34,091 nucleotides of DNA, from assembly GCF_009695635.1 (NCBI RefSeq), contig NZ_VUNN01000023.1, positions 1-34,091 of the forward strand, written 5' to 3'. Each line of letters begins with the position of its first letter. Position 1 is the first letter of the stretch. Source of the DNA: Bullifex porci (lineage in GTDB: Bacteria; Spirochaetota; Spirochaetia; Sphaerochaetales; Sphaerochaetaceae). This document shows positions 9,522 to 27,532 of the stretch, in pieces. The notes beneath the pieces were generated by a model. That model was not told where the DNA came from. It was given only the letters and a program-made list of their open reading frames with translations, and searched no databases. A program made the translations under genes and the position numbers.

Positions 9522-9594
9522 TAGCAGGGGTAGGACTCGAACCTACGACCCCTGGGTTATGAGCCCGATGAGCTGCCAACTGCTCTACCCTGCG
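9522..9594 (-). tRNA. Initiator tRNA-fMet (CAT)
   Basis: A 73-base cloverleaf on the minus strand with anticodon CAT. Initiator marks: the 1-72 pair is open (C1 opposite U72) and the anticodon stem has three consecutive G-C pairs (GGG-CTCATAA-CCC). The T arm is GTAGG-TTCGAGT-CCTAC and the D stem GAGC/GCTC. The 28-42 pair is a C.A mismatch, which is unusual. CCA is not encoded. A TTGACA promoter ends eight bases upstream and a terminator follows 74 bases downstream. Confidence 0.9.
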
Positions 9595-21543: not shown

Positions 21544-22968
21544 TTGGCCATAAGAAAGACTAAAATTATTTGTACAATAGGTCCTGTTGTAGAGAGCGAG
21601 GAAAAGATAAAAGCTTTGATTAGTGCAGGTATGGATGCTGCACGCTTTAACTTCTCACATGGAAGTCATGAGGAGCATAAAGCTCGAATCGATTTAATAA
21701 AGAAGGTATCAAAGGAGATGAATGCTCCTATAGCATTAATCCTCGATACCAAGGGTCCAGAAATTAGAGTCTGTGACTTTGCAGAAAAGAAGGTAGAATT
21801 AGTTGAAGGTCAGACCTTCACACTATATAAGGATCCAACACATATAGGAGATGTCAATGGTGTTGGTATTACCTACCCTTACCTATCTGAGGATGTAAAG
21901 CCAGGAACAACTATTTTAATTGATGACGGCTTAATTTCAATAACAGTCACAGATATCGTTAATGGTGATAAGGTTTGTCAGGTTGAAAAAGGTGGTAAGG
22001 TATCATCTAAGAAATCAATTAACAATTCTGGAGTAGATGTAGACCAAGTATTCATTAGCGAAAAGGATAGAAGTGATATTATCTTTGGTATTGAACAGGA
22101 TATTGACTTCATAGCTGCATCCTTTGTAAGAAACTAAGACGATGTGAAGAAGCTAAGAAAGCTACTTAATGTTCATGGTGGTCAGAAGGTTCAAATCATT
22201 GCAAAGATCGAAAATGGTTCAGGTATAGACAACCTTGATTCAATCCTAGAAATTGCTGATGGCGTTATGATCGCACGTGGTGATATGGGTGTAGAGGTTC
22301 CATTTGATCATCTTCCTTCTATTCAGAAGAACATAATTAAAAAGTGCTATAAGAAGGGAAGAATCATTATTACAGCTACTCAAATGCTTGAATCAATGAC
22401 TGAGCATCCACGACCAACAAGAGCAGAGGTATCTGACGTAGCAAATGCAATCTACGATGGAACTACCGCGATAATGCTCTCTGGAGAGACAGCTGCAGGT
22501 AAGTACCCTATTGAAGCTATAAAGGCTATGTCTAAGATTGCTGAATACACAGAGAACCAAATTAACTACCAGGATAGATATTTGGTAAATAATCTTAGCC
22601 TTAAGCAGGATATTCTTAATACTATTACAAGTGCATCTGTTGAAGCATCATTCTTCCTAAAGGCTAAAGCTATTGTAGTAGCTACAGTATCAGGATATAC
22701 AGCTCACATTGCATCATACTACCGTCCATCTGTACCAATCATTGCATCATGTACAGATGAAAAGGCAACAAAGCAATTAAAGCTTGACTACGGTGTTTAT
22801 CCATATCATGTTGATTTAACAAACGATAGAGACGTAATGAGAACACAAGCACTTCAAATTGCTAGAGCATCTAAGGTAGTAGAGAAAGGTGATTTAGTTG
22901 TTCTTATCTGTGGCTCCTTAAACTCAGGAACTAGTACCTCTGATACTATGATTATTGCTGAAGCATAA
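21544..22968 (+). pseudogene. pyk: Pyruvate kinase interrupted by an in-frame TAA
   Basis: Two parts in the same frame make a normal-length enzyme of about 474 codons. The first (from TTG 21544) has RKTKIICTIGPVVESEEKI, ARFNFSHGSHEEH, ILDTKGPEIRV and ends FVRN. Codon 198 (22135-22137) is TAA, and the frame goes on at once with DDVKKLRKLL, VQIIAKIENGSGIDNLDSI, ADGVMIARGDMGVEVP, ITATQMLESMTEHPRPTRAE and the C-terminal domain. Related enzymes have a sense codon at this place. A TTG or GTG restart at 22144 would make only part of the enzyme. The start also lacks a ribosome site. Either a recent nonsense mutation, a read error, or suppressed. Confidence 0.85.
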
Positions 22969-24856: not shown

Positions 24857-24885
24857 TTGACAAACACATTTTTTAATGGAACAAT
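24857..24885 (+). promoter_or_regulatory. Sigma-70-type promoter of xdh
   Basis: TTGACA (24857-24862), a 17-base spacer, AACAAT (24880-24885). Predicted start near 24891, just before the structured leader. Confidence 0.7.
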
Positions 24886-24891
24886 TTAACT

Positions 24892-24998
24892 GCATTGGTA
24901 TCACAGACCGCTGTTAAGACACAACAGAAGCTAAGCGACCATGCAAAAACAATATCGGGGAAAAAGGTGGGCCGGAGTAGTGTTTTTGCTGTCTGTGA
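24892..24998 (+). ncRNA. Three-way-junction leader of xdh, candidate riboswitch
   Basis: Three nested helices can form. P1: TCACAGAC (24901-24908) with GTCTGTGA (24991-24998). P2: CGCTGTT (24909-24915) with AAC...AGCG (ending 24937), starting directly on P1. P3: GCAAAAACA (24943-24951) with TGTTTTTGC (24981-24989), nine perfect pairs, one base from P1. The likely TTG start (24986-24988) lies in P3 and the GGAG ribosome site (24974-24977) in its loop. An alternative helix, GCATTGGT (24892-24899) with ACCATGC (24938-24944), excludes P3 at its base, giving a switch. The P2 arm faintly recalls 5S rRNA (ACAGAAG.TAAGC). No riboswitch class that I know matches. Confidence 0.6.
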
Positions 24999-27532
24999 AT
25001 TCAAAGGAATATTGTTCAAACGAAGATAAAAAGCTCCTAACATTTTTACGTGATGATCTTCATCTAACTGGAACCAAGGATGGTTGTTCTGAGGGTGCCT
25101 GTGGTGCTTGTACTATAATAGTCGATGGAAAAGCGACTAGAGCATGTGTATTTACACTCTCAAAATTACAAGGAAAGAAGATAACAACAATTGAAGGATT
25201 AACTCAAAGAGAAAGAGAGGTTTACTCCTATTGCTTTGGTAAGTGTGGTGCTGTTCAATGTGGATATTGCATACCAGGTATGGTAATGAGTGCAAAGGCC
25301 CTATTGGATGTTAATCTAAATCCTACTAGAGAGGATGTAAAGAAGGCTATAAGAGGCAATATCTGTCGCTGCACAGGATATGTGAAAATAGAAAATGCAA
25401 TTCTGCTTGCAGCCGATTACTTTAGAAATAATAGAGAAGTTGTTTTTGATAACTCAGATGGTTCTTTAGGCTCCTCCTTTATGAGAGTTGATGCTATTGC
25501 AAAGACTCTTGGTGAAGGAATATATGTTGATGACATCACACTAAAGGATATGTGCTATGCAAAGGCTGTTAGAGCAAAATATCCAAGAGCAAGAGTTAAA
25601 AAAATTGATGCTTCAAAGGCTTTAAATGATCCAAGATGTATCGCTGTTATCACAGCAGATGATGTGCCATACAATAGACATGGACACTTAAAGAAGGATT
25701 GGCCTGTATTAATAAAGGAAGGAGAGCTTACTCACTATATTGGTGATGCAATTTGCTTAGTAGTAACAGATCAAAAGAACGCACTAGAGGAGCTATGCTC
25801 CTTAGTTGAGGTAGAATATGATATTCTTCCTGGAGTATATGATGTTCATGAGGCTATAAAGGATGAAATATTAGTTCATGAGGGTGAATCAAATCTCATG
25901 CGTAAGGAGCATATCATAAGGGGAAATGCGCATGAGGCTCTAGAAAGATCAAAATATAAGGTTCATGAGACCTTCACTACTCCACATACTGAGCATGCCT
26001 TTATGGAGATGGAAGCGGCTATTGCTTGTTGGGATGATAAGGAAGGAATTACCCTCTTTACAGGCTCACAGAGTGTATATGATGAATTACATGAGATAAC
26101 TAAGATCTTAAATCTTCCTGAGGATAAGGTTCATTGTATTAGCCAGCTAGTAGGTGGTGGCTTTGGTGGAAAGGAAGATATGTCTGTACAGCACCATGCT
26201 GCTTTAGCTACATATATTACACATCGCCCTGTTAAGGTAAAGCTTACAAGAAAGGAAAGCTTAGAGATACATCCAAAGCGCCATCCTATGGAAATGGAAT
26301 TAACTCTAGGGTGTGATGAAAATGGTTATTTAACTGGACTTGAGTGTACAATACTTGCCGATACAGGAGCTTATGCCTCATTAGGAGGACCGGTATTACA
26401 AAGAGCATGTACACATGCAGCAGGTCCATATAACTATCAAAATATTGATATCACAGGTATCGCTCTATATACAAACAATGTTCCATCAGGAGCCTTCAGA
26501 GGCTTTGGTGTTACACAATCATGCTTTGCTATCGAAAGTGCAATTAATAAGCTTTGTAAGCTAATTAATATGGATCCATTTGAGTTTAGAATGCAAAATG
26601 CTCTAAAGCCAGGAGACACAATGCCTAATGGGCAAATAGCATCAGAGGATACAGGTATCATAGAGTGTCTTGAAAAAATAAAGCCATATTATGATATGTA
26701 TCCAACAGCAGGAATTGCTTGTGCCCTCAAGAATAGTGGTGTTGGAGTTGGTGTTCCTGATACAGGAAGGTGTATCCTATCTATTGAGAATAATATAGTA
26801 CACATTAGAACCTCTGCAGCGTGTATGGGACAAGGCTTAGCAACTGTAGTACTACAAATCTGTATTGAGACAACTAAGCTTCCTGCCTCTCAATTTATTG
26901 TAGAAGCTCCTGATACCAGAAGAACTCCTAACAGTGGTACATCTACAGCCTCTAGACAAACTGCATTTACAGGCGAAGCAACTAGAAGAGCTGCCGAGAA
27001 GCTAAAAGCTGCATTAGAAGGCTCAAAGCTAGAGGATTTAGAAGGTCAAGAGTTCTATGGTGAGTTCTGCTATGAAACAGATCCAATAACAAGTACAAAG
27101 CCACATCCTATTTCACATCTAGCATATAGCTACTCAGCTCAGCTTGTCGTCCTTGATGATAGTGGTAAGGTAGAGAGAGTTATCGCTGTTTGTGATGCAG
27201 GCAAGGTAATAAACCAGCTTTCTATCGAAGGACAAATTGAAGGTGGAGTTGTAATGGGTCTAGGATATGCTCTTACAGAAAACTTTATTAGTGAGCAAGG
27301 GTATGTTAAGAGTAAATATGGAACTCTAGGGCTATTAAGAGCAACAGATATTCCTGAAATAGAGGTTGAGCTAGTACATGCAAAGGGCTATGGTATGGCA
27401 GCTTATGGTGCGAAGGGTGTTGGAGAGCTCTGTACTATCCCGACTGCTCCTGCAGTAGCACATGCATACTACAAGAGAGATGGAATATTTAGAACAGCAT
27501 TACCACTTGAAAAGACTGCTTATCGCAAATAA
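24986..27532 (+). CDS. Xanthine dehydrogenase family, likely selenium-dependent, fused 2Fe-2S and Mo domains
   Basis: 848 residues from TTG 24986, chosen because GGAG lies eight bases before it and the protein then starts like its relatives; the ATG at 24941 would put a folded leader into the protein. Two [2Fe-2S] clusters: Cys34, 39, 42, 54 (DGCSEGACGAC) and Cys92, 95, 127, 129 (QCGYC, NICRC). The Mo domain follows, with GGGFGGKEDMS, SGAFRGFGVTQ, TPNSGTSTASRQ and the catalytic Glu in GAKGVGELC. There is no FAD domain, and the layout and length fit the selenium-dependent xanthine dehydrogenases that carry labile Se on Mo. It oxidises a purine or similar heterocycle; the electron partner is not encoded here. 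Its 3' end overlaps rnd by 13 bases, convergently. Confidence 0.88.
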   Translation: MLSVNSKEYCSNEDKKLLTFLRDDLHLTGTKDGCSEGACGACTIIVDGKATRACVFTLSKLQGKKITTIEGLTQREREVYSYCFGKCGAVQCGYCIPGMVMSAKALLDVNLNPTREDVKKAIRGNICRCTGYVKIENAILLAADYFRNNREVVFDNSDGSLGSSFMRVDAIAKTLGEGIYVDDITLKDMCYAKAVRAKYPRARVKKIDASKALNDPRCIAVITADDVPYNRHGHLKKDWPVLIKEGELTHYIGDAICLVVTDQKNALEELCSLVEVEYDILPGVYDVHEAIKDEILVHEGESNLMRKEHIIRGNAHEALERSKYKVHETFTTPHTEHAFMEMEAAIACWDDKEGITLFTGSQSVYDELHEITKILNLPEDKVHCISQLVGGGFGGKEDMSVQHHAALATYITHRPVKVKLTRKESLEIHPKRHPMEMELTLGCDENGYLTGLECTILADTGAYASLGGPVLQRACTHAAGPYNYQNIDITGIALYTNNVPSGAFRGFGVTQSCFAIESAINKLCKLINMDPFEFRMQNALKPGDTMPNGQIASEDTGIIECLEKIKPYYDMYPTAGIACALKNSGVGVGVPDTGRCILSIENNIVHIRTSAACMGQGLATVVLQICIETTKLPASQFIVEAPDTRRTPNSGTSTASRQTAFTGEATRRAAEKLKAALEGSKLEDLEGQEFYGEFCYETDPITSTKPHPISHLAYSYSAQLVVLDDSGKVERVIAVCDAGKVINQLSIEGQIEGGVVMGLGYALTENFISEQGYVKSKYGTLGLLRATDIPEIEVELVHAKGYGMAAYGAKGVGELCTIPTAPAVAHAYYKRDGIFRTALPLEKTAYRK

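Follow-up and report, generated by a model that had tools for sequence, protein, structure and literature searches.

A covarying hairpin at the start of selenium-dependent xanthine dehydrogenase mRNAs in Sphaerochaetaceae as a candidate for an apparently undescribed riboswitch family

We analysed a window of 34,091 nucleotides from Bullifex porci (assembly GCF_009695635.1, contig NZ_VUNN01000023.1, positions 1-34,091, forward strand), in which the gene xdh occupies 24980-27532 on the forward strand. Its product scores 1295.8 bits against the TIGR03311 profile, above the cut-off of 830.45, which identifies it as a selenium-dependent xanthine dehydrogenase (Se-XDH). By homology the start codon is the GTG at 24980 (VFLLSVN), with which the relatives G010 and G003 are concordant, and the TTG at 24986 is an alternative; the first ATG of the open reading frame found by six-frame translation, at 24941, falls within the 3' arm of the conserved helix P1 described below. 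GTG or TTG also starts xdh in 22 of 50 leaders that carry this motif. Farther upstream in the window, a tRNA gene on the reverse strand (9522-9594) is the sole match at Rfam gathering level.

A sigma-70-like promoter precedes xdh on the forward strand (24857-24885), with a -35 box TTGACA at 24857-24862, a 17-nt spacer and a -10 box AACAAT at 24880-24885, just where the original prediction had placed one in front of a structured leader. From the promoter's end at 24885, transcription is predicted to start at about 24892, upstream of position 24910; a start mapped downstream of 24910 had been named as evidence against that leader. Of the 50 nonredundant homologous leaders, 38 have a comparable promoter at the corresponding spacing, compared with 0.7 expected from shuffles, and this near-fixed spacing predicts that the first transcribed base coincides with the 5' arm of P1 or lies no more than a few bases from it.

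The conserved element of this leader is a hairpin at about 24892-24944 that begins at the predicted transcription start, and a DNA search of relatives likewise showed conservation to be limited to a short block (about 24888-24949) instead of extending over all 107 nt of the original prediction. On the forward strand, P1 is formed by a 5' arm at 24892-24899 (GCAU, the bulged U24896, and GGU) and a 3' arm at 24938-24944 (ACC, AUGC), both supported by covariation. Inside it lies an internal loop, the presumed ligand pocket, whose 5' side is AUCAC at 24900-24904 (ATCAC in 47 and AACAC in three of the 50 nonredundant leaders). A closing step follows, in which AG at 24905-24906 pairs with CU at 24931-24932 (A24905-U24932 and G24906-C24931), and this CU together with AAGCG, the 3' side of the loop, makes up a nearly invariant segment at 24931-24937 with the consensus CU(A, C or U)AGCG. 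The hairpin is capped by P2 at 24911-24927, also supported by covariation, in which CUGUU (24911-24915) and AACAG (24923-24927) enclose the loop AAGACAC. Generalized over the homologues, the motif consists of a covarying P1 of about 6-8 base pairs with an inner block of the GGY/RCC type, an almost invariant symmetric 5x5 internal loop of AUCAC opposite (A, C or U)AGCG, an RG/CU closing step and a freely variable P2, and the pocket is barely altered while the insert at P2 ranges from 5 to 71 nt.

The original prediction had described a different structure, a three-way junction spanning 24892-24998, and the hairpin shares bases with it. Its three helices are indeed those of the minimum-energy fold of that interval: a long first helix (24901-24908/24991-24998), which excludes the conserved hairpin; a second, CGCU/AGCG (24909-24912/24934-24937); and a third (24943-24951/24981-24989), an alternative hairpin of this species that overlaps the 3' arm of the conserved P1. 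The placement of the start codon inside the third helix also holds, since this hairpin encloses and occludes the start of xdh. The helices therefore exist as a predicted fold, but signs of selection on them are lacking. The fold energy is unremarkable against dinucleotide shuffles (z = -1.18; 26 of 200 shuffles fold at least as well), a 6-nt downstream complement to the 5' arm of the long helix occurs in four of 50 nonredundant homologous leaders compared with 1.6 expected, and a hairpin resembling the third helix is present in G010 but absent in the close relative G003. Moreover, the bases of the junction covary in the other, shorter fold. We therefore reject the junction as the conserved fold, and that it is itself the functional aptamer is scarcely credible, even though it is the window's minimum-energy structure.

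Covariation in the short hairpin was assessed in the 50 nonredundant leaders, with double-sided changes counted on alignment A4. The three pairs of the inner P1 block can form in 50, 50 and 49 of the 50 leaders, with GC, AT, GT and TA all found at one position. Alignment A4 contains 69 double-sided changes, compared with 28.5 after column shuffling, a control inflated by the relatedness of the sequences, and with at most 24 in slid registers. Since many of the sequences are related and shuffles are generous, the firmer controls are the slid registers and permutation across divergent representatives. The outer P1 scores 9.68, compared with 5.48 (sd 0.46) when the 3' flanks are permuted among species, and P2 scores 11.78, compared with 8.41 (sd 0.44) in its control. 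The flanks of P1 differ between species yet remain complementary, as in the window (GCAU.GGU/ACCAUGC) and in the relative G011 (AGCCUU.GGU/GCC.G.AAGGCU). In the closing step, homologues show A-U, G-U and U-A alternatives (U-A in one leader, with CACUG/CAAAG), and whether A or G stands there depends on whether the neighbouring base is A or instead C or U (Fisher P = 9e-6). The conserved hairpin cannot be explained by chance. The covariation whose absence from homologous leaders would have spoken against a conserved structure is present, and the 5' leader of xdh contains a structured RNA supported by covariation, as looked for in a riboswitch.

The same data indicate on which nucleic acid the motif acts. 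A position directly 3' of the promoter would suit a DNA operator bound by a transcription factor between +1 and +55. However, the commonest innermost P1 pair among the 50 leaders is G-U, the two arms of P1 change in concert, and the conserved halves are separated by an insert of anywhere from 5 to 71 bp. Together these features argue that the motif acts as RNA and not as a DNA site, and they leave the operator a highly improbable explanation.

The motif is widespread in one family. Ten of 16 genomes of the genus contain the core pattern CACAGACCGCTG-N-CAGAAGCTAAGCG, and their copies align unambiguously in the core. A covariance-model search, a type of check proposed with the original prediction, recovered homologous motifs in 48 of 139 Sphaerochaetaceae genomes (model R1). 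The next gene downstream is xdh, 28-138 nt away, in 45 of 46 loci, the remaining one being cut by a contig end. Inspection of leaders added 34 more divergent copies upstream of xdh, which brings the total, counted from leader tables, to about 80-82 of the 139 genomes in some ten genera, and a second model (R2) recovered all 45 representatives on which it was tested, including types outside its training. At high confidence there is at most one copy per genome, and the window's genome has a single one, on xdh.

Beyond the family, an exact-pattern scan of 84,980 species, with the patterns of the divergent forms left out, returned 20 spirochaete records of Sphaerochaetaceae type and three from Alphaproteobacteria. 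We judged the latter three to be chance matches; one of them (L094) has neither P1 and P2 stems nor xdh. When 393 genomes of the phylum were scanned with a covariance model, confident matches came solely from Sphaerochaetaceae, and those weak matches elsewhere that we inspected resembled chance. Se-XDH leaders inspected from other spirochaete families did not contain the motif, and in these scans it was found on no gene but xdh and in no family but Sphaerochaetaceae. Within the family, Se-XDH genes occur without the motif in genera g5 and g10, in part of g31 and in several genera with small genomes; in all these groups taken together, the promoter often lies nearly at the start codon.

The divergent copies vary mainly outside the pocket. 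Genus g31 has a minimal type of about 37 nt, GGAUUGGUAUCACGGCCAGUGGCUUAGCGGCCAAACC; three leaders (L116-L118) almost lack P2; two (L149 and L151) have a P1 of GCG.U.UGU/ACA.CGC; and in five (L152, L156, L157, L160 and L164) P2 is lengthened by an insert of about 70 nt. This insert looks structured and shared by different genera, and it might serve either as a second sensor or as an arm that stabilises the structure. Two of the same leaders, L156 and L157 from genus g37, hold in the spacer between motif and xdh a second copy of TATCACA together with TTGTGATA, which could pair with either copy. It is possible that this arrangement acts as a decoy or as a switch partner for the pocket strand.

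Neither the window's element nor the divergent copies match any family in Rfam 15, even at permissive thresholds (E up to 5-10). The scan covered the Moco, purine, NMT1/xanthine and 5S models, which bears out the earlier statement that the leader could be matched to no known class. Specifically, the resemblance to 5S rRNA suggested by GAAGCUAAGC was discarded, as there is no Rfam 5S match and divergent copies such as GGCUUAGCGG do not retain it. RNAs of the purine class fold into three-way junctions held by loop-loop contacts. The xdh motif, in contrast, consists of one hairpin interrupted by an internal loop and has no Rfam match, and its likeness to the xanthine variants of the guanine class lies in the proposed ligand, those variants having purine ligands, xanthine among them (PMC9295807). 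A parallel can also be drawn with NMT1, a xanthine riboswitch reported in Proteobacteria (PMC7373994): both are small hairpins in which P1 and P2 flank a conserved internal loop, both sit on genes of purine oxidation or transport, and NMT1 is thought to act on translation (PMC7373994, PMC8266621). The published NMT1 core, however, is GAAGCG opposite CCGGAAAU (PMC8266621), whereas the xdh motif has AUCAC opposite HAGCG; given these different residues and the missing Rfam match, we do not consider it a member of NMT1. Another comparison is the NAD+-II riboswitch (pnuC motif), which likewise has conserved internal-bulge nucleotides between two stems, lies near the ribosome-binding site and is associated with one gene type (PMC8632094, PMC7749635), but it is found on other genes, the Rfam match is again missing, and we saw no conserved pseudoknot with the ribosome-binding site in the xdh motif. 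A literature search, with subscription journals and supplements mostly outside its reach, found no report of such a motif, and the main texts of two genome-wide discovery papers (PMC11109978, PMC8632094) do not mention it.

Since a covariation-conserved leader on a selenium-dependent xdh without a catalogued match points to an undescribed riboswitch for a signal linked to purine breakdown, we regard the first 55 nt or so of the xdh mRNA as probably forming an undescribed type of cis-acting regulatory RNA, with a riboswitch aptamer as its likeliest identity. The hairpin is a well-supported cis-regulatory RNA family, apparently undescribed, and a good riboswitch candidate. Of the unknown xdh riboswitch originally proposed, what has endured is the uncatalogued, structured and covarying leader, while its first and third helices and the junction as described have not.

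Regarding the mechanism, the motif lies 0-100 nt from the ribosome-binding site and no terminator was seen at the xdh leader element, which together suggest that the element would control translation initiation of xdh. We propose that a small molecule binds the internal loop and thereby closes P1, a helix predicted to be metastable without ligand in most of the 50 leaders, as expected of a switch. In the window, the rival junction fold is 8.4 kcal/mol better than the aptamer fold. It sequesters UCACAGAC of the pocket and places the start codon inside a closed hairpin, which makes it a reasonable unbound, low-expression state in this species. On these folding predictions, the three-way junction may be a ligand-free alternative state of this species rather than the conserved structure, with its long helix and start-codon hairpin holding expression of xdh low. 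We lean slightly towards ligand binding switching xdh on.

No general rule for the expression platform emerged from the leaders. With the aptamer imposed on the fold, predicted accessibility increases in 14 of the 50 leaders and decreases in five, a split that is not decisive. As an anti-Shine-Dalgarno sequence, the 3' arm of P1 looked persuasive in two leaders (L022 and L037), but over the 50 leaders its complementarity to the Shine-Dalgarno region is no better than that of permuted sequences (P = 0.45), and this candidate was set aside. Complementarity between the pocket or core and the start codon reaches P = 0.025 over the 50 leaders, a marginal value that is confounded by shared ancestry. 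About ten leaders have an exact CTGTG that ends in the start codon and is complementary to the CACAG of the pocket strand; as this sequence is shared by descent, we retain it as no more than a lead.

The leaders show no common secondary-structure switch in their platform, which would also fit a leader bound by protein, in which a regulator or XDH itself would recognise the invariant loop and control translation. Protein sites, too, are typically compact hairpins whose internal loop does not vary, confined to one gene and one family. No candidate regulator was identified, however, and ten loop bases kept invariant despite about 50% divergence of XDH would exceed what most protein sites need. 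We therefore consider a protein ligand quite unlikely and favour a small molecule.

As to the identity of this molecule, an oxidised purine related to XDH (xanthine, hypoxanthine or urate) is the most economical guess. The original prediction had suggested a purine, molybdenum cofactor or selenium-linked signal, of which the purine is plausible; molybdenum and selenium are less economical, given a motif present once per genome and on xdh only. A riboswitch of the same anatomy that senses the molybdenum cofactor, molybdate or labile selenium would suit an enzyme that is a selenium-dependent molybdenum hydroxylase (TIGR03311) in a genome that also has the selenium-cofactor gene YqeC, and it would recall the Moco riboswitch candidates, which regulate genes of molybdenum enzymes (PMC2408646). 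Against this, one would expect to find a sensor of cofactors on further molybdenum or selenium genes as well, no copy of the motif matches any Rfam Moco riboswitch model, and YqeC, the one selenium-cofactor gene located in this genome, lies at a different locus from xdh. Since the motif is on xdh alone, we favour a purine specific to XDH and regard a cofactor ligand as unlikely.

The fullest version of our preferred reading, which we advance as a tentative proposal, is a new class of oxidised-purine riboswitch, unrelated to NMT1 and the guanine class and with aptamers as small as about 37 nt (the minimal type of g31), that would activate the selenium-dependent breakdown of purines in spirochaetes, both host-associated and environmental. 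To our knowledge, few riboswitches have been described in this phylum. It is uncommon for an orphan candidate to combine strong covariation with one clear gene association, and such candidates can be tested directly; enzymes of the Se-XDH type, moreover, have been implicated in the anaerobic breakdown of purines and urate. If xanthine, hypoxanthine or urate is sensed, the motif would represent a riboswitch for purine catabolites that is separate from both NMT1 and the guanine class, and, should the riboswitch reading be true, its versions of 37-60 nt would offer small natural aptamers for structural work and sensors.

Two further observations accompany these results. Two Sphaerochaeta-type genomes (G112 and G129) each carry a second TIGR03311 gene whose leader (L159 and L162) is without the motif, and these Se-XDH paralogues may be regulated differently. 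Elsewhere in the window, a pyruvate kinase gene on the forward strand (21544-22968) is interrupted in frame by the stop codon TAA at 22135-22137 (FVRN*DDVKKL), which may be a sequencing error, a recent pseudogene or a true break; its two halves match positions 1-200 of the PK barrel and positions 205-328 plus PK_C.
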